Shown here: in pieces, positions 2,297 to 60,016 of the stretch | Layout: each line of letters opens with the position of its first letter | Position numbering within the stretch: position 1 is the stretch's first letter | NCBI RefSeq assembly: GCF_024749285.1 | Contig: NZ_CP087196.1 | Span: forward strand, 1,798,001-1,862,000 | Source of the DNA: Pseudomonas sp. B21-015 | GTDB lineage: Bacteria; Pseudomonadota; Gammaproteobacteria; Pseudomonadales; Pseudomonadaceae | DNA: 64,000 nucleotides | Direction of reading: 5' to 3' | Translations under genes and position numbers: made by a program | The notes under the pieces: generated by a model | What the model was told of the DNA's origin: nothing | Databases searched by the model: none | The model's input: the letters and a program-made list of their open reading frames with translations, nothing else

Positions 2297-3058
2297 ATGA
2301 GCATGACGTTTTCCGGCCAGGTCGCCGTTGTGACGGGCGCGGCCAATGGTATTGGCCGCGCGACCGCTTTGGCGTTTGCCGCCGAAGGTTTGAAAGTGGT
2401 GGTGGCCGATCTGGACGCAGCCGGAGGTGAAGGCACTGTGGCGCTGATTCGCACCGCTGGCGGTGAAGCGACCTTCGTGCGCTGCAACGTCACTGTGGAA
2501 AGCGATGTAAAAAATCTGATGGACGAGGTGGTGAATACCTACGGCCGTCTCGATTATGCCTTCAACAATGCCGGCATCGAAATTGAGAAAGGCAAACTGG
2601 CCGAGGGTACGGTCGATGAGTTCGACGCGATCATGGGTGTCAACGTCAAAGGCGTCTGGTTGTGCATGAAGTATCAGTTGCCGTTGCTGCTGGCCCAGGG
2701 CGGTGGCGCGATCGTCAACACCGCTTCGGTCGCCGGCCTGGGGGCTGCGCCAAAGATGAGCATCTACGCCGCCTCGAAACACGCGGTGATCGGCCTGACC
2801 AAGTCGGCGGCCATTGAATACGCCAAGAAAAAGATTCGTGTGAATGCGGTGTGCCCGGCGGTGATCGACACCGACATGTTCCGTCGTGCCTATGAGGCGG
2901 ACCCGAAGAAAGGCGAATTCGCCAATGCCATGCACCCGGTCGGGCGCATCGGCAAGGTCGAAGAAATTGCCAGCGCGGTGCTGTACCTGTGCAGCGACGG
3001 CGCGGCGTTCACCACCGGTCATTCGCTGGCGGTGGATGGGGGTGTTACCGCGTTTTAA
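2297..3058 (+). CDS. short-chain dehydrogenase/reductase
   Basis: A 253-residue classical SDR that should oxidise or reduce an alcohol/ketone pair with NAD(P). It shows the cofactor motif TGAANGIG (residues 12-19), the adenine-pocket residues VVADLDAAG, the NNAG motif, the catalytic Ser in NTASVAG, and the active-site YAASK. The C-terminal FTTGHSLAVDGGV tail is also typical. The Asp after the second beta strand (VADLD) favours NAD over NADP. A GAGGA ribosome-binding site lies just upstream of the ATG. It is divergently transcribed from curA, and the two may answer to the same signal. Substrate unknown. Confidence 0.85.
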   Translation: MSMTFSGQVAVVTGAANGIGRATALAFAAEGLKVVVADLDAAGGEGTVALIRTAGGEATFVRCNVTVESDVKNLMDEVVNTYGRLDYAFNNAGIEIEKGKLAEGTVDEFDAIMGVNVKGVWLCMKYQLPLLLAQGGGAIVNTASVAGLGAAPKMSIYAASKHAVIGLTKSAAIEYAKKKIRVNAVCPAVIDTDMFRRAYEADPKKGEFANAMHPVGRIGKVEEIASAVLYLCSDGAAFTTGHSLAVDGGVTAF

Positions 3059-3104
3059 TGTTTTAGGTCGCGATGCCGGGACCCTGCCTCTTCAGGCATA
3101 TCTA

Positions 3105-3204
3105 CCTTTGTGGCGAGCGAGCTTGCTCGTGCTGGGCTGCGCAGCAGCCCCAAAGTTCTATGAGTGCTGCGCACTCAAGCGCGAGCAAGCTCCCTCGCCA
3201 CAGG
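3105..3204. repeat. REP-like inverted repeat
   Basis: The outer arms read CCTTTGTGGCGAGCGAGCTT and its near complement ending CCCTCGCCACAGG. They enclose a second, GC-rich inner dyad. This is a variant REP subtype (GTGGCGAG... rather than GTGGGAGC...), lying between the SDR gene and the next gene. Confidence 0.75.
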
Positions 3205-3342
3205 GGCATCGGTTCCCTGAAGACGCCGGGCAATGTGTTTCAAATGGTTAGAACCGACGGTTTTGGCGGTTTTGTCGCACATCCCCTCGAGCACTCCTGT
3301 GATTAACTGTTTCCCGCAAAACAGACAGGAGTTTGCTTGCTC

Positions 3343-4733
3343 ATGGAGTTGAGAATCGATCGACAGGCATTGGTGCCGGTCGTGCAGCAAATCGTCGACG
3401 CGTTGGCCGACTGGCTCCGTTGTGACGAGGTGCCGCCGGGGACGCGTTTGCCGTCCGTTCGGCAAATCGCGCGGATCAATCTGCTTAGCCAATCCAGTGT
3501 CATCGAGGCTTGCGAACGGCTGGTGGCGCAAGGGGTGCTGGCGACGCGCAATGGGGCGGGTTTCTTTGTCGCGACAACGGCGCTGGCTGATCAGGGGCAA
3601 CGGGATTTTCCCTGGTTCGAGGGGGCTGAGGAGAATCAGAGCGGCCACGTGGGCAACTGAAGCTGGGCTGCGGCGGCTTACCCGAAAGCTGGCGCGAAAC
3701 TGACGACCTGAGCTATGCCATGCGCCAGGTCAGCCGCACCGACATGGCCGGACTGTTCAACTACAGCACGCCACTGGGCCTGCTTGCCCTGCGTCAGCAG
3801 ATCCTCAAACGGTTGAAACAGCTGAATATCGCGGTGGACGAAAGTCGAATCCTGACCACGGCGGGAGCCACTCATGGGCTCGACCTGATCGTGCGCACTT
3901 TGTTTAACCCGGGCGATTGTGTGGTGGTAGAGAGCCCCGGTTATTCGATGCTGTTCGATCTGCTCAGGCTGCACGGGGTCAGCATGATCGAGGTGCCACG
4001 AACGCCTCACGGACCCGACACCGAAGCACTCCAGACACTGTTGTTGAAGTACAAACCCCGTGGCTTGTTCATCAACAGCTTTTATCACAACCCCACCGGC
4101 AGCTGTTTGACCTTGGGCGTGGCTCAGCAGGTTCTGCAACTGGCCAGAAAACATGGCGTGCTGGTGATCGAAGACGATGTCTATGCCGATTTGCACAGCG
4201 GCCCCGGTACGCGTCTCGCGGCATTGGGCATCGATGACAACGTGATCTATGTCGGCAGCTACTCCAAAACCCTCAGCAGTTCGTTGCGGGTCGGCTTTGT
4301 CGTGGCGGGTGCCGATGTCATATCGCGTCTGGCCAAGGTCAAGATGATCAGCAGCATGGGCGCTTCACGGTTTTGCGAATCGGTGCTGGCGCGTCTGTTG
4401 GCCAGCGGCGCCTATCGCAAACTGGTGCAGCGCCAGCGCCAGCGTTTGAGTACCGACAGAGAGGCGGCCTTGCAAGTGCTCGAGGACGCGGGCTGGGAGG
4501 TCTTCGGCAAACCTGTGGGTGGCCTGTTCATCTGGGCGCGATCGCGCAAGTCCGATCACACTCAGGTGCGGACACAGGCGCGGCGTTTCGGTGTCCTGCT
4601 GTCTTGCCCGACGGCATTCAGCCCCACCGGTGAAACCCATGACTGGCAGCGCATCAACGTTGCCTATGCTTGTGATCCTCGCGCCCGGGCATTTTTTCAG
4701 GCCACCGCTCGGGATCGACCTCAAACATTCTGA
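3343..4733 (+). pseudogene. frameshifted MocR/GntR-type PLP-dependent regulator
   Basis: This locus encodes a GntR winged-helix domain fused to a class-I aminotransferase domain, a MocR-type PLP-responsive regulator. The first frame runs from 3343 to a TGA at 3658-3660 and contains VVQQIVDALADW and PSVRQIARINLLSQSSVIEACERLVAQGVLATR. The second frame picks up directly at CTG 3657 (LKLGCGGLPESW) and runs to 4733, with GDCVVVESPGYSMLFDLLR, NSFYHNPTGSCL, the EDDVYADLH turn and the PLP-lysine motif GSYSKTLSSSLRVGF. The frames overlap by one base at GGCAACTGAAG, which becomes continuous if one C is restored (AACCTGAAG). Domain content on both sides is intact, so this is either a recent -1 mutation or a sequencing error. 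Start could also be TTG 3337. Confidence 0.82.
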
Positions 4734-4841
4734 AAACGACGCGGGCGTAGCTTTTTGCCATTATTCCGACGCCAGAGACTTGTGTTGGCACAAGCCCATT
4801 GCGAATCTGCATCAACAGACAATGGCAGGGGACTAAGTGCA

Positions 4842-6806
4842 ATGATTTCGGCCGTGCAAGGACGTTTTGCCAACCTCGGTATGGCGAAAAAACTGGGTGT
4901 CGGGTTTGTACTGGTGCTGCTGTTGACCGCCCTGGTGGCGGCCATTGGCGTATGGTCCCTGCAAACCATCAGTCATCGCTTCGACGGGCTCAAGCAGATG
5001 TCGTCGCTCAACAGCGGTTTGCTCAAGGTGCGCTTGCTGGAGCAGGACTACGCTTTGCGCGGTGACCCGAAAACCGCGGATGCCCTGCACGCGGGGGTGG
5101 ACGCGCTGATCGCTCTGGCGACCGAGCTCCAGGCTCAGTCCTCCGCCAACGTGCCGGTCATGAATGACGTCGAACAGTCTCTGGGAGCCTATCGCAAGGC
5201 TTTTGACGAGTTCGTCTCGCTGAGCCAGGCCAAGGACCTGGCGCTGGAAATGGCCAGTTGGTCGGTGTCCAGCGTGGCCAATAATCTGGATGTGCTGCAG
5301 GCCGGGCTTGCCGACGATGGCGCCTATGCCTTGAAGGAGTCCGAGGGCAAGGACGGCGGGCAATTCATCGAACAGGCGAATCAGGTCAGCCAGGTCTCGC
5401 GGCTGATGTTGCAGGCCATGAACGAAGCGCGGGTACGCCTGGACCAGAGCCGCAAGGGCGACGACAGCGCCGGGCAGGGCAAGATCGAGCAGGCCGACCA
5501 GGCGTTGACCCAGGCCGAGCAGCTGAAAACCACGGTCAAGGATGAGGGTTACCAGACAGTCCTCAATGAAGTGTCCGGGCACATTGCCAGTTTCAGTGAA
5601 AAACTCGCCGAGTACACCGGCCTGTTGGCGCAGGAAAAGACCGTCTCCGAACAACTCCACCAGCGCGCCGCCCATGTGGTGGAGCGGGTGGATCAGGCCT
5701 ACGTTGCCGAAGACCGGTCGATGCAGGCAGAGCTGAAAAAGAACTCGCTGTTGATCATTGGCTCTTCGGCACTGGCCTTGCTGGTCGGGCTGATTGCCGC
5801 GTGGGTGATTACCCGGTTGATCGTCGCACCGCTGCGCAGTGTGATCCGGGTCGCTCAGCAGATCGCCGCGGGCGATTTGAGCGCGACGATTGAAGTGACC
5901 CGTCGGGACGAGATCGGCCAGTTGATGCAAGCCATGCAGCAAATGGGCGCGGGCCTGAGCAGCATCGTCAGTGGTTTGCAGGCGGGTATCGAACAGCTGG
6001 CAAGCTCTGCTCAATCGCTGTCGGCGGTCACCGAGCAGACCAACCTTGAAGTCAGCAGCCAGAAGGAAGAAACCGAGCAGGTCGCCACCGCGATGAACCA
6101 GATGACGGCCACGGTGCATGACGTTGCACGCAACGCGGAGGAGGCCGCCCAGGCGGCGCAGACCGCCGACGGCAAGGTGGAAAGCGGTCAGCAGGTGGTG
6201 CGTCAGAGCATGGCGCGGATCGAACAGCTGGCGGATTCGGCGACGTCGGCCAGCTCCAGCATCGAAAGCCTCAGTGCGGAAATCCAGAACATCGGCACGG
6301 TGCTCAGCGTGATCAAAAGCGTGGCCGAGCAGACCAACCTGTTGGCGCTCAATGCGGCCATCGAGGCGGCGCGGGCCGGTGAGCAGGGCAGGGGCTTTGC
6401 GGTGGTGGCGGATGAGGTCAGGGCACTGGCCAAGCGAACTCAGCAATCGACAGAGGAAATCGAACGGCTGGTCAGCGCCTTGCGCTCGGCGGCGCAGTCG
6501 TCGGTGCAGCAGATTCAGAGCAGTGGCGAGTTGGTGAAGATGGCGGTGAGCGATGCGTTGCAGACCGAGAGTGCGTTGGGGAGCATTGCGGCGGCGGTGT
6601 CGTTGATTCAGCAGATGAACCAGCAGATTGCGGCGGCGGCCGAGGAGCAGAGTTCGGTGGCCGAGGAGATCAATCGCAGTGTCACCAGTATTCGGGCCAG
6701 CGCGGATCAGTCTTCGTTGGCGATGCAGGGGAATGCGGCTTCCAGTAATGAGCTGGCGCAGTTGGGGGTTGAGTTGAAGGGGATGGTGGGGCATTTCAGG
6801 CTGTAG
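4842..6806 (+). CDS. methyl-accepting chemotaxis protein
   Basis: A 654-residue transmembrane chemoreceptor. A first membrane segment (about residues 17-40, [20 protein letters not shown]) is followed by a long helical periplasmic sensor with [15 protein letters not shown] and TELKK-type heptads, resembling the helical-bimodular/HBM-like class. TM2 lies near 301-323, a HAMP domain near 324-376 ([17 protein letters not shown]), and the conserved signalling hairpin near residue 497 ([20 protein letters not shown]). It signals to CheA/CheW in the polar array. I chose ATG 4842 because AGGGGA sits eight bases ahead of it and TM1 then falls close to the N-terminus. The ligand is not deducible with confidence; HBM receptors of pseudomonads often sense organic acids. 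Confidence 0.9.
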
Positions 6807-6925
6807 AAACTGCCGAAGGCTGTGATCTTATGATCCTGGCGGCTGGATGTACTCGCCCGTCCATCAATCCCAACGCAAAAAAAAGCCACCTGATCCGGTT
6901 GATGCCAGTCAGTTAAACGCAATCC

Positions 6926-6956
6926 ATGTGGGAGCGAGCAAGCCCGCTCCCACAGG
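6926..6956. repeat. single REP hairpin
   Basis: GTGGGAGCG and CGCTCCCAC form a short self-complementary hairpin around AGCAAGC. It is a single REP rather than a doublet, between the convergent chemoreceptor and the gene ending at 7016. Confidence 0.75.
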
Positions 6957-7015
6957 TTTCGTTCCTTAACTGACAGACATAAACCTGACCCGGCGGCTTT
7001 TCAGCATTTGCATGA

Positions 7016-7786
7016 TCAGTCGTAGATCACTTTCTTCTTCCAGTCGGCATCAGCTTCAACGTCTTTGAGGCCTTCAGTCAGTTGGTTCACCTCGCCTTCA
7101 ACCGGCGCGATCTTGTCCATGACCTGGGCGTTGGCACGGGCCAGGAGTTTTTCCAGGTATTCGAGTTGTTCGCTGTAAACCTGAGGCTCCGGTTGTTTGC
7201 GCAGGTATTGCGCGCCGCGTTCGAAGGCCAGGCGGGCCTGGCCTGGCTGATTCTGTTGCAGGGCATGCTGGCCGAGGTTGTTGAAGAATTCGATGTGCAG
7301 CAGGACCAGGATGTGGCGCACTTCGCGGATCCAGCGCTTGGCTTCGTTGGGCGGCAGGAAACCGTCCTGTGCGGCGCGGGTGATCTGGCCATGCAGGGCT
7401 TCGAGCAGGAAGCGCACGTCTTTGGCTTTGGCTTCGGTCTGGATCGGTGCCGGCGGGTTGTTGACCGGGATCGATTCGCCCTGGGCGGCCAAGGTACTCA
7501 GTTCGGCAATCCGTGCCTTTAGCGTGGCGCTGGACTTTTCCAGGTTGAACAGGCGCTGGCAGACGTTCAGTTCCAGGCGGGTCAATAGCAGCTTGAGCGC
7601 GGGTGTCATGAACTGACCGGGGAAGGTCTCGGTGATTTCGCCGCAGCGACGCAAGCGGTCGTTGAGTTCAACCTTGGTGCGGGCCTTTTCCAGCTTGTTG
7701 TTTTCCACCACATGGTTCATGTAGCCAATGGCGATCAATAGTGCGATCCCGGCTACGACTAGCAGGGTGATCATGAGTGGTGTCAC
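7016..7786 (-). CDS. conserved membrane-anchored hypothetical protein
   Basis: About 256 residues. One N-terminal membrane helix (MITLLVVAGIALLIAIGYMNHVV) is followed by a long helical cytoplasmic domain with many charged residues, including KLEKARTKVELNDRLRRC, QHALQQNQPGQARLAFERGAQYL (TPR-like) and YLEKLLARANAQVMDK. The GTG at 7786 is preferred because AGAGG lies about eight bases ahead; the ATG at 7774 is the alternative. I recall similar proteins in many pseudomonads without an assigned role. The single TM plus TPR-like helices suggest a scaffold, but this is inference. Confidence 0.7.
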   Translation of the reverse strand: MTPLMITLLVVAGIALLIAIGYMNHVVENNKLEKARTKVELNDRLRRCGEITETFPGQFMTPALKLLLTRLELNVCQRLFNLEKSSATLKARIAELSTLAAQGESIPVNNPPAPIQTEAKAKDVRFLLEALHGQITRAAQDGFLPPNEAKRWIREVRHILVLLHIEFFNNLGQHALQQNQPGQARLAFERGAQYLRKQPEPQVYSEQLEYLEKLLARANAQVMDKIAPVEGEVNQLTEGLKDVEADADWKKKVIYD

Positions 7787-8167: not shown

Positions 8168-8243
8168 GTCCCCTTCGTCTAGTGGCCTAGGACACCGCCC
8201 TTTCACGGCGGTAACAGGGGTTCGAGTCCCCTAGGGGACGCCA
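8168..8243 (+). tRNA. tRNA-Glu (TTC), copy 1
   Basis: A 76-base cloverleaf with acceptor arm GTCCCCT pairing with AGGGGAC, anticodon loop CTTTCAC (anticodon TTC), T-loop GGTTCGAGTCC and encoded GCCA end. It is identical to copy 2 at 8426. Confidence 0.97.
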
Positions 8244-8245
8244 AT

Positions 8246-8321
<76 letters not shown>

Positions 8322-8425
8322 ATTTTAAACAGCGTTGCTTTCGGGCAAAGCTGAGTGAAACCAGAACCAAATCTTCGGATGCGGATCTGGGCACCGAAAC
8401 ACACACCATGTGTTCCGGGCAGCGT

Positions 8426-8501
8426 GTCCCCTTCGTCTAGTGGCCTAGGACACCGCCCTTTCACGGCGGTAACAGGGGTTCGAGTCCCCTAGGGGACGCC
8501 A
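8426..8501 (+). tRNA. tRNA-Glu (TTC), copy 2
   Basis: Sequence identical to the tRNA-Glu at 8168. The 104-base spacer before it (8322-8425) is not repeated elsewhere in the cluster. Confidence 0.97.
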
Positions 8502-8504
8502 TTT

Positions 8505-8580
<76 letters not shown>

Positions 8581-29549: not shown

Positions 29550-30188
29550 TTACATCGACAGAATCAACCGACCGGCGAACAGGATCAGAATCACCCCCAT
29601 GGTTCGTTCGAACCAGTGCCCCATGCGCATGAACAGCAATCGCACCCGCGCGCTGGAAAAGAACAGCGCCACGATCACGAACCACAAGGCGTTCACGAAA
29701 CACATCCATAGCCCGTACAGCGCCTGAATCTGCAGCGGTGTCGAGGCGCTGATGATGGTCGTGAAAATGGCCAGAAAAAACAGCGTGGCCTTGGGGTTGG
29801 TGGCGTTGGTCAGAAAGCCTGTGCTGAAGGCCTTGAACAGGGACTGCTGTTCAGTTGACGCTTCTGCATCCTTATCGCCTTCAATCGCCGATTTGGGTTT
29901 GCTGCGCAACAGGCTTACGCCGAGGTACAAGATGTAGGCACCCCCCACGACCTTGGCCGCCGTCAACAACCAGGGCGTGGTGTGCATCAACGCGCCGACG
30001 CCGAGCAAGGTGTAAAGCACATGCACGGAAATACCCGCGCCGATGCCCAGAGCCGTGCAGATACCCACCAACCGGCCGAAACGCACGCTTTGGCGGATGG
30101 TCACGGCGAAGTCCGGTCCAGGTGCGACTACGGCCAGGAAGTGGATGGTTGCCAGCGCCAGAAACTCGCCCAGATAATTCGAAAACAT
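29550..30188 (-). CDS. LysE-family amino-acid exporter
   Basis: 212 residues and about six membrane helices. It opens FLALATIHFLAVVAPGPDFAVTIRQSVRFGRLVGICTALGIGAGISVHVLYTLLGV, the LysE/RhtB signature with the APGPDF motif, and ends with RLLFMRMGHWFERTMGVILILFAGRLIL. Such proteins export amino acids (Lys, homoserine, threonine, cysteine or derivatives) by proton antiport. The start at 30188 (MFSNYLGEFL) lies one base past the stop of the dioxygenase gene, so translation is coupled and CTGGAG inside that gene serves as ribosome site. It is the last gene of an AlaX-dioxygenase-LysE operon. Confidence 0.9.
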   Translation of the reverse strand: MFSNYLGEFLALATIHFLAVVAPGPDFAVTIRQSVRFGRLVGICTALGIGAGISVHVLYTLLGVGALMHTTPWLLTAAKVVGGAYILYLGVSLLRSKPKSAIEGDKDAEASTEQQSLFKAFSTGFLTNATNPKATLFFLAIFTTIISASTPLQIQALYGLWMCFVNALWFVIVALFFSSARVRLLFMRMGHWFERTMGVILILFAGRLILSM

Positions 30189-30189
30189 C

Positions 30190-30960
30190 TCAACTCCAGA
30201 AAGTAAGGGGTGAAGCATTGCCGCGATAGCCGACAAAGAAGGAAAGGCTCAATCGCGGATCGTCCACACCCGGCGTCACCGAGTGCATGCGGCGTGAGTT
30301 GAACATGATGAAATCACCCGGCTCAGGGCGAATCTCCAGGGTCGGAGGGCCGAGCAGGGCCGGATCGATGCCGTAACTGTCGCCGCGCATTTCGTCGAAC
30401 TGGTCCGGGGTAATGTCGTGGTCCCACATCTGCAACGCGCCGCCCTCGGTTGGCATGTTCAGGTAAACATTGCAGGCGAATTGCGCTTCCAGGCTTTTGG
30501 CCTGGAAGCTGTCCGGGGCGTCCTTGGCGAAAATGTCGTGATGGGCGAGGAAGCACACCCCGGGTTTGACGACCCGGGACAGCCCCACATACATCTTGCG
30601 GCCATAGAGGTTTTCCAGGTGCGCGCCTGCCGGCCAGGACTCGTCGAGCATGCAGCGCAGGGTGTCGACAGGAGAGGAGTAGGGCGCGCAACGGCTGCGC
30701 AATTCGGCGATGTTGCCGGTGGCGCGCTCGAAATAGTCCTCGATCAGCAGCGGCTGGTTTTCCGCTTCATAAAACGCCATGCCGATGCGACCGATGCTCG
30801 GTGCATTGATGTAGCCTTCGAAGCCCGGGGCGAGAATCTTGTCGCCGATCTGGATCGCCAGCGGCTGAGGCAACAAGCCTTTGACGCGGATGGCGAGGAC
30901 TTCTTCGTTGGCCAGTTTTTGTATGCACGTCTCATCGAGACGATTGACGTCAAGCATCAT
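30190..30960 (-). CDS. 2-oxoglutarate/Fe(II)-dependent dioxygenase
   Basis: 256 residues with a double-stranded beta-helix oxygenase fold inferred from motifs. HxD is at His140-x-Asp142 (FLAHHDIF), the prolyl-hydroxylase-like NMPTEGGALQMWDHD is near 168-182, the distal His226 is in RRMHSVTPGVDDP, and a 2-oxoglutarate-binding Arg236 follows in PRLSLSFF. It should hydroxylate a small molecule with O2, Fe(II) and 2OG. Gene context (AlaX upstream, LysE one base downstream) points to a free amino acid as substrate; this is inference, though an amino-acid hydroxylase coupled to an RhtA exporter is known in Bacillus thuringiensis. The start is ATG 30960 or 30957. Confidence 0.85.
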   Translation of the reverse strand: MMLDVNRLDETCIQKLANEEVLAIRVKGLLPQPLAIQIGDKILAPGFEGYINAPSIGRIGMAFYEAENQPLLIEDYFERATGNIAELRSRCAPYSSPVDTLRCMLDESWPAGAHLENLYGRKMYVGLSRVVKPGVCFLAHHDIFAKDAPDSFQAKSLEAQFACNVYLNMPTEGGALQMWDHDITPDQFDEMRGDSYGIDPALLGPPTLEIRPEPGDFIMFNSRRMHSVTPGVDDPRLSLSFFVGYRGNASPLTFWS

Positions 30961-31052
30961 GTCTTAGGTCCATCTATCAGATAGTCAACAGAGCCCGCGA
31001 ACGCAGGCTCCCCCGGCGTCAGGCGATGACGGGGTCGACATCGCCCAAATGC

Positions 31053-31679
31053 TCAATCCACGTGGTAGTGGACTGACAGCGTTCCCTTTTTCTGCGAAAG
31101 GGAAGCAATCGTGACGGTGCCCAAATCCTTCAGGCTCCGTACATGGGTGCCGCCACAGCCGTAGGCGGGCAATTCACCGAAACCGATTTCCCGGGCACCT
31201 TCGCGCAACGACGTCAGGCGCGGCAGGTCATGGGCGATCCATTGCTTGATGCCGTACTGAATCGTCTGGGCATCAACGTCCTGCGCACTTTCGCCCGGCT
31301 TGAACTGCACACGTCCTTCATCCGGCCAGTGATGGGCCTTGGTCGGCATCCAGCCCAGGGCCTGGACGAAGTGACCAATCAGGTGCCCCGCCGAATGCAT
31401 GCGCGTATTGAACTGACGGCGTTGCTGATCGACCCGAATCTGGGTCATGCCGAGTCTTACCGGGTGATCGACGAAATGGATGATCCGGTCCGGATCCTGA
31501 ACCACGCGCAGCACCTGGCTTTCGCCGATCCAGCCGGTATCACAGGGTTGCCCTCCGCCTTGGGGGTGAAACAGTGTGGCGCGCAGCACCACGGCGAACT
31601 CGTTCTCGTGGGGGGTGCAATCCAGAACTTCCACATTGGCCTTGAGGTCATCACTATGGAAAAAGAGGCGAAGCGTCAT
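31053..31679 (-). CDS. AlaX-type alanyl-tRNA editing protein
   Basis: 208 residues. A free-standing homologue of the AlaRS editing domain that deacylates Ser- (or Gly-) tRNA(Ala). Visible motifs are ATLFHPQGGGQPCDTGWIG, the zinc ligands HSAGH (HxxxH) and CGGTH (CxxxH) near the C-terminus, and SLSQKKGTLSVHYHVD at the end. It lacks the long AlaRS C-domain, as expected of AlaX. The start at 31679 (MTLRLFFHSDD) has GAGG nine bases upstream; 31694 is the alternative. It is first in an operon with the dioxygenase and LysE exporter, which suggests it protects the tRNA pool from an unusual amino acid made or handled here. Confidence 0.9.
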   Translation of the reverse strand: MTLRLFFHSDDLKANVEVLDCTPHENEFAVVLRATLFHPQGGGQPCDTGWIGESQVLRVVQDPDRIIHFVDHPVRLGMTQIRVDQQRRQFNTRMHSAGHLIGHFVQALGWMPTKAHHWPDEGRVQFKPGESAQDVDAQTIQYGIKQWIAHDLPRLTSLREGAREIGFGELPAYGCGGTHVRSLKDLGTVTIASLSQKKGTLSVHYHVD

Positions 31680-31710
31680 ATTCCATGTCCTCATTAAAGT
31701 TTCTTTTTTT

Positions 31711-31739
31711 ATTATATGAATCGTGGAATTGCGTGATAA
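31711..31739 (-). promoter_or_regulatory. promoter of the alaX-dioxygenase-lysE operon
   Basis: Read on the minus strand: TTATCA (31739-31734), 17 bases, TATAAT (31716-31711). The region is only 90 bases wide and shared with the divergent LysR gene, whose own -10 (GATAAT, 31735-31740) would overlap the -35 of this promoter. That is typical of LysR-controlled divergent units. Confidence 0.65.
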
Positions 31740-31769
31740 TCCGTTCAACCATCAAAGGACTGTTGCGCT

Positions 31770-32768
31770 GTGAGCATAAATCTTCCCCTGCCGCTGCTCG
31801 GTGAAATGGCGATTTTCGTCAAGGTTGTCGAGACCGGCAGTTTCTCCGAAGCCGCTCGCCAGTCAGGCTCTTCGCCCTCGGCGGTCAGTCGCAGCATTTC
31901 ACGCCTGGAGAAGGCGCTCGCCATGCGTCTGTTGCAACGAACCACGCGCAAGCTGCGTCTGAGCGACGGTGGCGAAGAGGTGTTCAAGCGTTGCCAGGAA
32001 ATGGTCAGCGCGGCGAAGTCGGTGATGGAAATCAGCGGTCAGTTCACCCAGGAAGCGGAAGGGCTGGTGCGCGTCAGCGTGCCTAAGGCTGTCGGACGGT
32101 TCGTGATTCATCCGCATATGCCGGAATTTCTGCGGCGTTATCCCAACGTGGATGTGGAGTTGTTACTCGAGGACCGCCAGGTGGATTTGATCGACGACAA
32201 CGTCGACCTGGCGATCCGCATTACCGATCGCCCGCCCGCGGGACTGGTGGGGCGGCAGTTGCTGACCATCGATCATCTGCTCTGCGCAACGCCGCAGTAT
32301 CTGGCCGAGCACGGCACACCGACTCATCCCCACGACTTGCTCAACCATAGCTGCATCTATCTGGGGGAAACCCCAAGCGATGCGCGCTGGAAATTCAAGA
32401 AAGGCACCAAAGCCGTGACCGTCGGTGTGCGCGGACGTTATGCCGCCAATCACACGGGTGTACGACTGGGCGCGGTATTGCAACACATCGGGATCGGCAG
32501 CCTGCCGTACTTCACCGCCCGTTATGCTCTGGAACAAGGGCTGATCGTGCAGGTACTGCCGGACTGGACCTTTCTGGCCTCCTATCACGGAGGCGCCTGG
32601 CTGCTGCATTCGCCAACCCGCTATCTACCACCCAAGTTGCGGGTATTCATCGACTATCTGGTGGAATGCCTGGAGAAGGAGCCGACCTTGAGCAAGCCGG
32701 GCAAGCCAAGTGATTCGGGCAAGGTCGCGGCGGAGTATGAGTTGCCCGAGAGTGATGGGTTGCTCTGA
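31770..32768 (+). CDS. LysR-family regulator
   Basis: 332 residues. Winged helix GEMAIFVKVVETGSFSEAARQSGSSPSAVSRSISRLEKALAMRLLQRTTRKLRLSDGGEE is of the CrgA/AaeR-like type. The effector domain contains LVRVSVPKAVGRFVIHPHMPEFLRRYPNVDVELLLEDRQVDLIDDNVDLAIRI, HPHDLLNHSCIYLG and a C-terminal TRYLPPKLRVFIDYLVE. It is divergent from the AlaX-dioxygenase-LysE operon and, by position, its likely regulator; the small-molecule ligand could be the amino acid that operon handles. The C-terminal ~30 residues are low-complexity. Confidence 0.9.
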   Translation: MSINLPLPLLGEMAIFVKVVETGSFSEAARQSGSSPSAVSRSISRLEKALAMRLLQRTTRKLRLSDGGEEVFKRCQEMVSAAKSVMEISGQFTQEAEGLVRVSVPKAVGRFVIHPHMPEFLRRYPNVDVELLLEDRQVDLIDDNVDLAIRITDRPPAGLVGRQLLTIDHLLCATPQYLAEHGTPTHPHDLLNHSCIYLGETPSDARWKFKKGTKAVTVGVRGRYAANHTGVRLGAVLQHIGIGSLPYFTARYALEQGLIVQVLPDWTFLASYHGGAWLLHSPTRYLPPKLRVFIDYLVECLEKEPTLSKPGKPSDSGKVAAEYELPESDGLL

Positions 32769-59374: not shown

Positions 59375-60016
59375 GTAGTACCGTCGGTTTCCGGGCTGCC
59401 GGAAACGGCGTTCGGCACACACGACTTCTCACGGTCGGTGTCAGGTGCGTCAGGAGTGGTTGGCCACTCCAGTGTCTAGCGAACCCCGGCCAATTGGGCC
59501 GGTGTCGCGACGTACGCGTCCTGCTTGCTGTGGCTACTTAAGCACTCAGTCAGGAGGAGGAATCAACCGGCGGCTGTGGACGAGATGAAGCGTCTTGATA
59601 AAGCCTATTGCTACACAGTCCAGCGGTTGTGCATCTCCACCCTACACGTATCCCTGATAATTCGGGTGCTGCCGCGCGCAGAATCCGCAGCGGGTTGGCA
59701 TTTACCGTGAGCTCCGAAAGGGGAGGTCACGCATCATGGCTAATTTAGGCGTTGTTTCCGAAGCCTTCGCTCGGGGTCGTTCGCAGCTGACTGCACTTTG
59801 TGAACTGGCCGTGAATATTTGCTCGGAAGGCGAGTGAAAACTCTGCTTTGCGGCATGATTCAGGCCTTATGTCACCTGCGCTTGTTACAACTGAAAACTC
59901 TGCCGTTACGTAGCGAAAGCCCCGTAGGACGGCCTCTCGTCCTCGTGAATTGCGTTGGTCAGGGCCGGTTTTTGACCGTTAGTCCGCTGTCCAGGCCACT
60001 TTTGGCGGCGTTCGCG
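59375..60016 (-). promoter_or_regulatory. long rne 5' leader
   Basis: From the predicted start site near 60010 to the rne ATG is about 0.64 kb without a supported gene on either strand. In E. coli the rne leader (about 0.36 kb) carries hairpins cleaved by RNase E for autoregulation; the same role is likely here by analogy. Short open frames inside it lack ribosome sites and coding character. Confidence 0.6.

Follow-up and report, generated by a model that had tools for sequence, protein, structure and literature searches.

A 2OG-Fe(II) oxygenase gene accompanied by a tRNA editor and an amino-acid exporter in Pseudomonas: a candidate self-protection cassette for a non-standard amino acid

The window analysed here is a 64-kb stretch of the genome of Pseudomonas sp. 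B21-015 (6.59 Mb, single contig). It contains a small operon that runs leftward from 31694 to 29550 and encodes an AlaX-type aminoacyl-tRNA editing protein, a 2-oxoglutarate (2OG)-Fe(II) oxygenase, for which we use the shorthand DIOX, and a LysE-type exporter, next to a divergent gene for a LysR-type regulator (Table 1). These assignments, already proposed in a preliminary description made from the sequence alone, are borne out by domain and structure matches. The exporter ATG lies one base past the DIOX stop, as that description had it. It had also called all three genes tightly packed, which is true of DIOX and LysE only, since AlaX and DIOX are 92 nt apart. Because the GGAG of the exporter apparently falls within the last codons of DIOX, the sequence suggests that translation of these two genes is coupled. 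The operon promoter agrees with the consensus at 10 of 12 positions and thus deserves the term near-consensus; instead of overlapping the LysR start, as had been thought, it lies inside the 75-base gap between AlaX and LysR, clear of the LysR start codon. Promoter-like sites of that quality occur twice in 2.6 kb, against 1.0 expected in shuffles, and the 3 terminator-like hairpins at the locus are about what chance would give (2.6 expected).

Table 1. Features of the AlaX-DIOX-LysE locus, in window positions
Feature	Position	Strand	Size	Basis and remarks
AlaX-type aminoacyl-tRNA editing protein	31053..31694	-	213 aa (208 aa from ATG at 31679)	HxxxH and CxxxH; match to 2e1b
DIOX, 2OG-Fe(II) oxygenase	30190..30960	-	256 aa	PF13640; proposed maker of a non-standard amino acid
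LysE/RhtB-type amino-acid exporter	29550..30188	-	212 aa	PF01810; TIGR00949 below cut-off
Last DIOX codons, F-W-S-stop, with GGAG as probable exporter ribosome-binding site	30190..30201	-		Sequence and comparison of regions upstream of LysE; remnants read as scars in relatives
Sigma-70-type operon promoter, TTATCA-17-TATAAT	31711..31739	-		Promoter scan
Probable LysR operator, GTCCTTTGATGGTTGAACGGATTATCAC	31733..31760	-		Putative LysR binding site
Divergent LysR-type regulator	31770..32768	+	332 aa, GTG start	PF00126 and PF03466; adjoins all four gene-content states in Pseudomonas

The size of the AlaX homologues (208 aa in 119 of the 120 listed) fits the internal ATG at 31679 as the start of this protein. 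Like AlaX-M trans-editing proteins it carries a GG motif and both halves of the HxxxH/CxxxH zinc site (HSAGH at residues 100-104, CGGTH at 180-184), and it matches the AlaX-M structure 2e1b (E 9e-13) as well as chains of alanyl-tRNA synthetase. It differs from them in belonging to a LysR-linked unit with DIOX and LysE and in falling far below the AlaXM equivalog cut-off (NF040865, 68.7 against 300 bits). The scores for PF07973 (20.8 against 24) and PF01411 (24.5 against 30.3) are likewise below the curated cut-offs, and on these scores the protein is a diverged member of the AlaX group. A DIOX-specific AlaX signature was considered and dropped: past HxxxH, the most frequent Pseudomonas groups with the full set have HFVQ or HFIQ where AlaX-only ones have N-x-G-E, a difference that may just track the tree. 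The exporter scores well above the cut-off of PF01810 (122.6 against 25.6 bits) and below those of RhtC (98.8 against 288) and of the homoserine/threonine efflux family TIGR00949 (156.1 against 183.95).

DIOX matches PF13640 (38 bits, cut-off 27). Its HxD...H...R set had been described as intact, and so it is: H140, D142 and R236 are invariant across 66 aligned sequences and H226 is nearly so. In the structure model the nearest folds are predicted to be those of WelO5, a carrier-free enzyme, and SadA, a dioxygenase that acts on N-substituted L-amino acids (PMC3665795), both with 16-18% identity to DIOX. WelO5-type halogenases are not known to have an Asp at the iron. The modelled DIOX shares their overall fold. 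The substrates that WelO5 halogenates are alkaloids, and a halogenase assignment for DIOX was rejected in view of its invariant Asp142 at the iron. DIOX also scores below PF22814, the WelO5-type family (19.7 against 27 bits), although some homologues carry a precomputed PF22814 label, and below the equivalog cut-off for the L-isoleucine 4'-dioxygenase HilA (20.3 against 500). A match in Streptantibioticus cattleyicolor, tried as BesD, found no solved structure at E 0.001, and a link to lysine chlorination is therefore not claimed.

A census of 298 Pseudomonas genomes was made by combining three genome searches. All three genes occur in 62 genomes, AlaX with LysE in 12, AlaX alone in 62, LysE alone in 7 and none of them in 155. 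Not one of the 62 DIOX-bearing genomes has DIOX without both partners, and in all 62 the order AlaX-DIOX-LysE is kept, with 60-110 and 4-10 nt separating the matched stretches. Whether the three genes keep together across Pseudomonas was among the checks proposed in the preliminary description, and wherever DIOX is present they do. Left out of these counts were five genomes with only a distant or fragmentary AlaX (G134, G231, G077, G031 and G051), second AlaX pieces or hits, 22 LysE rows (49-53%) and 24 rows of DIOX paralogues (27-37%), 18 of which were inspected in context. Among the named Pseudomonas loci, the best 80 of 140 relatives in a collection scan, LysR, AlaX, DIOX and LysE are present in every one. 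OprD and MFS genes further left adjoin the operon in six of these, some loci being short, and we do not count them as members of the unit. DIOX-less loci lie at the same genomic place. Of 87 seen, 81 are census loci, all with LysR (at least 70% identity) and 80 with FadE, and the remaining six are second hits or the distant AlaX loci that the census did not count. A few genes are broken: AlaX is truncated after about residue 62 in one AlaX-LysE genome (G222) and its frame is broken in two AlaX-only genomes (G106 and G030). The AlaX frame break in one full set (G034) is likely an assembly error, since FadE is broken there too.

The presence of DIOX has changed repeatedly. The trees included roughly one in three of the 80 named full loci. 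The FadE tree (107 rows) requires 10 changes of DIOX state, at least 7 of them on starred branches, and the tree of FadE and LysR combined (114 rows) requires 8, with 8 maximal DIOX-less clades under the midpoint root. No such change leaves DIOX with just one partner. In seven independent starred pairs from the FadE tree, the state of LysE agrees with that of DIOX in an average of 4.9, runs against it in none and does not differ in 2.1. Six full loci were each compared with a DIOX-less relative. DIOX alone is cleanly absent in two pairs (L107/L153 and L046/L161) and DIOX together with LysE in three (L050/L159, L243/L162 and L238/L158); in the sixth (L057/L155) the divergence of the locus begins past AlaX. 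Directly before LysE, L153 retains ACC TTC TGG AGT TGA, the last four sense codons and the stop of DIOX, and L235, in which AlaX is truncated as well, retains CCC CTT ACT TAC TGG AGT TGA, the last six and the stop; L164 has a weaker trace. We read these remnants as scars of DIOX loss, with LysE staying in place and, in one case, AlaX too. Both genes remain under purifying selection in DIOX-less loci, with ratios of non-synonymous to synonymous substitution rates (dN/dS) of 0.10-0.20 for AlaX in three of six pairs (three unscorable) and 0.07-0.10 for LysE in three of four (one unscorable), from which it follows that the protective genes are useful without DIOX.

A common operator connects these variants. 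The site, GTCCwTTGA....TGAnCGGATTATCAC, sits between LysR and the first gene and, counted with up to 3 substitutions and with the proviso that the same genome can be present twice, was found in 119/119 full, 61/61 AlaX-only and 7/7 LysE-only loci and in 12 of 14 labelled AlaX plus LysE. The two misses (L253 and L256) are one locus from another genus, included twice and actually with DIOX at 64%. Elsewhere in those loci the operator occurs once in 4.4 Mb of strand, and the copy in the window is the sole site in this genome within 3 mismatches. Chimaeribacter has a form with 3 mismatches, and a Klebsiella plasmid carries a weaker candidate site with 5. Since one operator stands over all four gene-content states, AlaX and LysE would, on the simplest view, respond to the same compound.

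DIOX is rare outside Pseudomonas. Genomes with a match number 4 of 369 in the class, 3 of 322 in the order and 4 of 398 in the phylum, own genome included, the new ones being G301, G560, G593, G722, G1286 and G1233. Seven loci from other genera were seen in which DIOX is 48-68% identical (G560, G667, G1233, G1286, an Acinetobacter johnsonii plasmid and two Photobacterium plasmids). At all seven the three genes adjoin in the order of the window, and FadE was not found in the compared stretches. The A. johnsonii copy lies on a mobilizable plasmid of 6362 bp (NZ_CP068209.1) for which the annotation lists a mobilization gene, AlaX, DIOX and LysE; its open reading frames also include transposase-like and mobilization-like ones, a layout resembling, by analogy, that of a bacteriocin plasmid. 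A record filed under Achromobacter (H24) has the same length. A 15-kb plasmid of the same species (NZ_CP065663.1) carries LysR, AlaX and LysE at 2986-5276, without DIOX, and is a candidate immunity-only cassette. Among more distant loci (DIOX at 23-36% identity) AlaX adjoins in 4 of 29 (G593, G722, Caballeronia and Undibacterium), in each case with DIOX ahead of AlaX, opposite to the order in the window, and with no LysE homologue found at these four. In the G593 contig (C4) the AlaX-DIOX pair at 5239-6852 appears to lie in an integron cassette array: an integrase of integron type, as judged by eye, is encoded at 327-1313, and attC-like repeats are found at 1863-1942, 2342-2421, 4335-4414 and about 6940-7030. 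Further DIOX homologues, known as proteins only, occur in Xenorhabdus, Photorhabdus, Pectobacterium, Halomonas and Chromobacterium.

DIOX has not been seen without its two protectors, has repeatedly disappeared where they remained, and accompanies them on small plasmids. This is how a toxin-making gene linked to its immunity would behave, and as the gene encodes an oxygenase and its partners a tRNA editor and an exporter of amino acids, a non-standard amino acid is the simplest candidate for the toxin. We therefore think it probable, on comparative grounds, that DIOX makes such a toxic amino acid, that LysE expels it and that AlaX clears it from tRNA. DIOX would oxidise a free L-amino acid to a product that an aminoacyl-tRNA synthetase mistakes for its own substrate; the exporter would pump this product out of the cell, and AlaX would hydrolyse it off tRNA when some leaks into translation. 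The LysR protein would sense the compound and, binding the common operator, activate the protective genes together with DIOX in loci that have it. As a first guess, weakly held, the product may be a small hydroxyl-bearing amino acid similar to threonine or serine, because the exporter is RhtB/RhtC-like. The preliminary description had arrived at a made, exported and trans-edited amino acid from gene order; the idea no longer leans on gene order alone, as it is now supported by the strict dependence of DIOX on its partners, the common operator, the scars of DIOX loss and the recurrence in other genera and on plasmids. Also in its favour are the purifying selection on AlaX and LysE where DIOX is missing, the 4 of 29 distant loci in which AlaX adjoins DIOX, and the predicted fold of DIOX, nearest to those of a carrier-free enzyme and an N-substituted L-amino-acid dioxygenase.

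A further step, which we offer tentatively, is to see the cassette as an amino-acid counterpart of a bacteriocin: the oxygenase may turn a common amino acid into a diffusible translation toxin, and AlaX and the exporter would confer immunity in a form that small plasmids and integrons can carry. Three kinds of strain would then be expected among fluorescent pseudomonads: producers, sensitive strains, and non-producers made resistant by keeping AlaX, LysE or both under the same LysR switch. If the main proposal is right, one oxygenase is enough for an antimetabolite amino acid, tRNA proofreading can serve as an immunity function that spreads and persists alone, and a role would be found for a set of bacterial AlaX genes that so far have none assigned. 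Searching for oxygenases tied to a tRNA editor would open a genomic route to new non-standard amino acids, and loci with and without DIOX provide natural test pairs.

Several observations weigh against this account. The order FadE-ORF-LysR is conserved as well, so that gene order within Pseudomonas is partly plain synteny; through shared descent the 62 genomes are not independent and Fisher p-values overstate the case. The sign test on the seven starred pairs gives a median p of 0.0625, which is not significant alone. That homologues might rarely be adjacent in other genomes had been named in advance as grounds for rejection. At DIOX identities of 48% or more this is not so (7/7 loci), but it is the case for most of the distant ones, as 25 of 29 lack AlaX in the stretch examined (about 1.5 kb on each side in one of them, L254). 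The plasmid copies in Photobacterium sp. GJ3 are frame-broken, DIOX in one (L142), AlaX and LysE in the other (L136), by either assembly error or decay. WelO5, the best fold match, has alkaloids and not amino acids as ligands in its structures, and the characterised AlaX proteins covered in PMC11295145 remove Ser and Gly from tRNA(Ala). Finally, the nested pattern of gene content could arise if DIOX were simply the most dispensable gene of a detoxification set.

This last point leads to the main rival, which we regard as rather unlikely: a detoxification operon in which a toxic amino acid of foreign origin (plants, fungi or neighbouring bacteria) enters the cell, where it is sensed by LysR, cleared from tRNA by AlaX, expelled by LysE and destroyed by DIOX through oxidation. 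It accounts well for the common switch. Loci that lack DIOX retain the LysR gene and the operator, which means that a compound not produced by the cell's own DIOX can elicit the response. CtdA, an editor of canavanyl-tRNA, is encoded near canavanine-degradation genes, beside a catabolic operon, according to PMC10018355, a precedent for detoxification that again tells against the production reading. The rival does not account for the strict dependence, since an enzyme that destroys the compound should be of use by itself or beside just one partner, arrangements seen in none of the 62 genomes, and DIOX is the very gene that is lost while protection is retained. An ordinary fidelity and overflow locus, with AlaX editing Ser- or Gly-tRNA(Ala), LysE exporting excess amino acid and DIOX as an unrelated gene sharing the promoter, seems improbable to us. 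AlaX alone is indeed the commonest DIOX-less state (62 of 81) and some databases label its homologues Ser-tRNA(Ala) deacylase; left unexplained are the constant presence of both partners with DIOX and the occurrence of AlaX beside some distant DIOX homologues, where the surroundings differ and the gene order is reversed. Very improbable, finally, is a tRNA-tethered biosynthesis in which DIOX modifies a tRNA-bound amino acid and AlaX frees the product for export. Such a scheme would suit the four distant loci where AlaX is the retained partner, and for at least one DIOX paralogue (L115, 34%) the neighbouring gene encodes a cyclodipeptide-synthase domain, from a family of enzymes that use aminoacyl-tRNA. 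It sits poorly with the retention of AlaX and LysE without DIOX, and the enzymes with the nearest folds act on small molecules.

Production with self-protection has precedents, and the combination of editor and exporter is not the wholly new kind of self-protection that the preliminary description had envisaged. In Streptomyces cattleya and Streptomyces sp. MA37 the tRNA deacylase FthB and the exporter FthC are encoded beside the biosynthesis genes of fluorothreonine, as described in PMC7408626. The same content of maker, deacylase and exporter, with DIOX as the putative maker, fits the 62 of 298 Pseudomonas genomes and the seven closer outside loci. Fluorothreonine differs in being fluorinated and made by another pathway, and the editors differ too: a reading of FthB as an AlaX protein was rejected, because the review PMC11295145 places it near ProXp-ST1, whereas the editor here is AlaX-like. 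CtdA of Pseudomonas canavaninivorans shows, as reported in PMC10018355, standalone trans-editing of a non-proteinogenic amino acid on canavanyl-tRNA(Arg) in a Pseudomonas; it has a B3/4 domain, deals with an outside compound and is described without a biosynthetic enzyme. For hydroxyisoleucine the pairing of oxygenase and exporter is known. The IDO operon of Bacillus thuringiensis and the Hil operon of Pantoea ananatis and others have free-amino-acid oxygenases, some with an RhtA-type exporter, and the Hil operon adds a LysR-type regulator and HilA, a PF13640 protein; among the genes named in PMC3684760 there is no tRNA editor, and there are an extra reductase-like dehydrogenase and a PF10014 dioxygenase, neither of which is among the operon genes here. 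For the AMB cluster ambABCDE of Pseudomonas aeruginosa the product is likewise a non-proteinogenic amino acid that is toxic, and a LysE-type transporter is present along with two 2OG oxygenases; the cluster requires two peptide synthetases, and an editor is not among the components named in PMC4357302. Distinctive of the present locus are the AlaX-type editor, the single oxygenase and the minimal portable cassette. Among the matches listed in the open-licence PubMed Central literature there was no description of AlaX, 2OG oxygenase and LysE together, or of their portability and loss pattern.

Some minor observations were made along the way. Three of the DIOX paralogues (34-36%) lie directly beside a gene for a protein of 244-249 aa (L115 3256-4785, L121 3240-4757, L125 3298-4812). 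The neighbour in L115 matches the cyclodipeptide-synthase domain PF16715 (30.4 bits, cut-off 27), those in L121 and L125 are 41-42% identical to it, and TonB-receptor, periplasmic-binding or MFS genes are found nearby; this looks like a separate natural-product locus, perhaps a tRNA-dependent one. In three other Pseudomonas loci that were scanned the cassette adjoins a repeated tRNA pair, Gly-GCC/Glu-TTC as judged by eye (L050 7527-7936, L107 7528-8090, L243 2024-2433). A like array lies in this window at 8168-8577, about 21 kb from the cassette, so the intervening block may have been inserted or rearranged. The window also contains an rne-II cis-regulatory RNA at 59384-59651 (Rfam RF01756, 281.8 bits).

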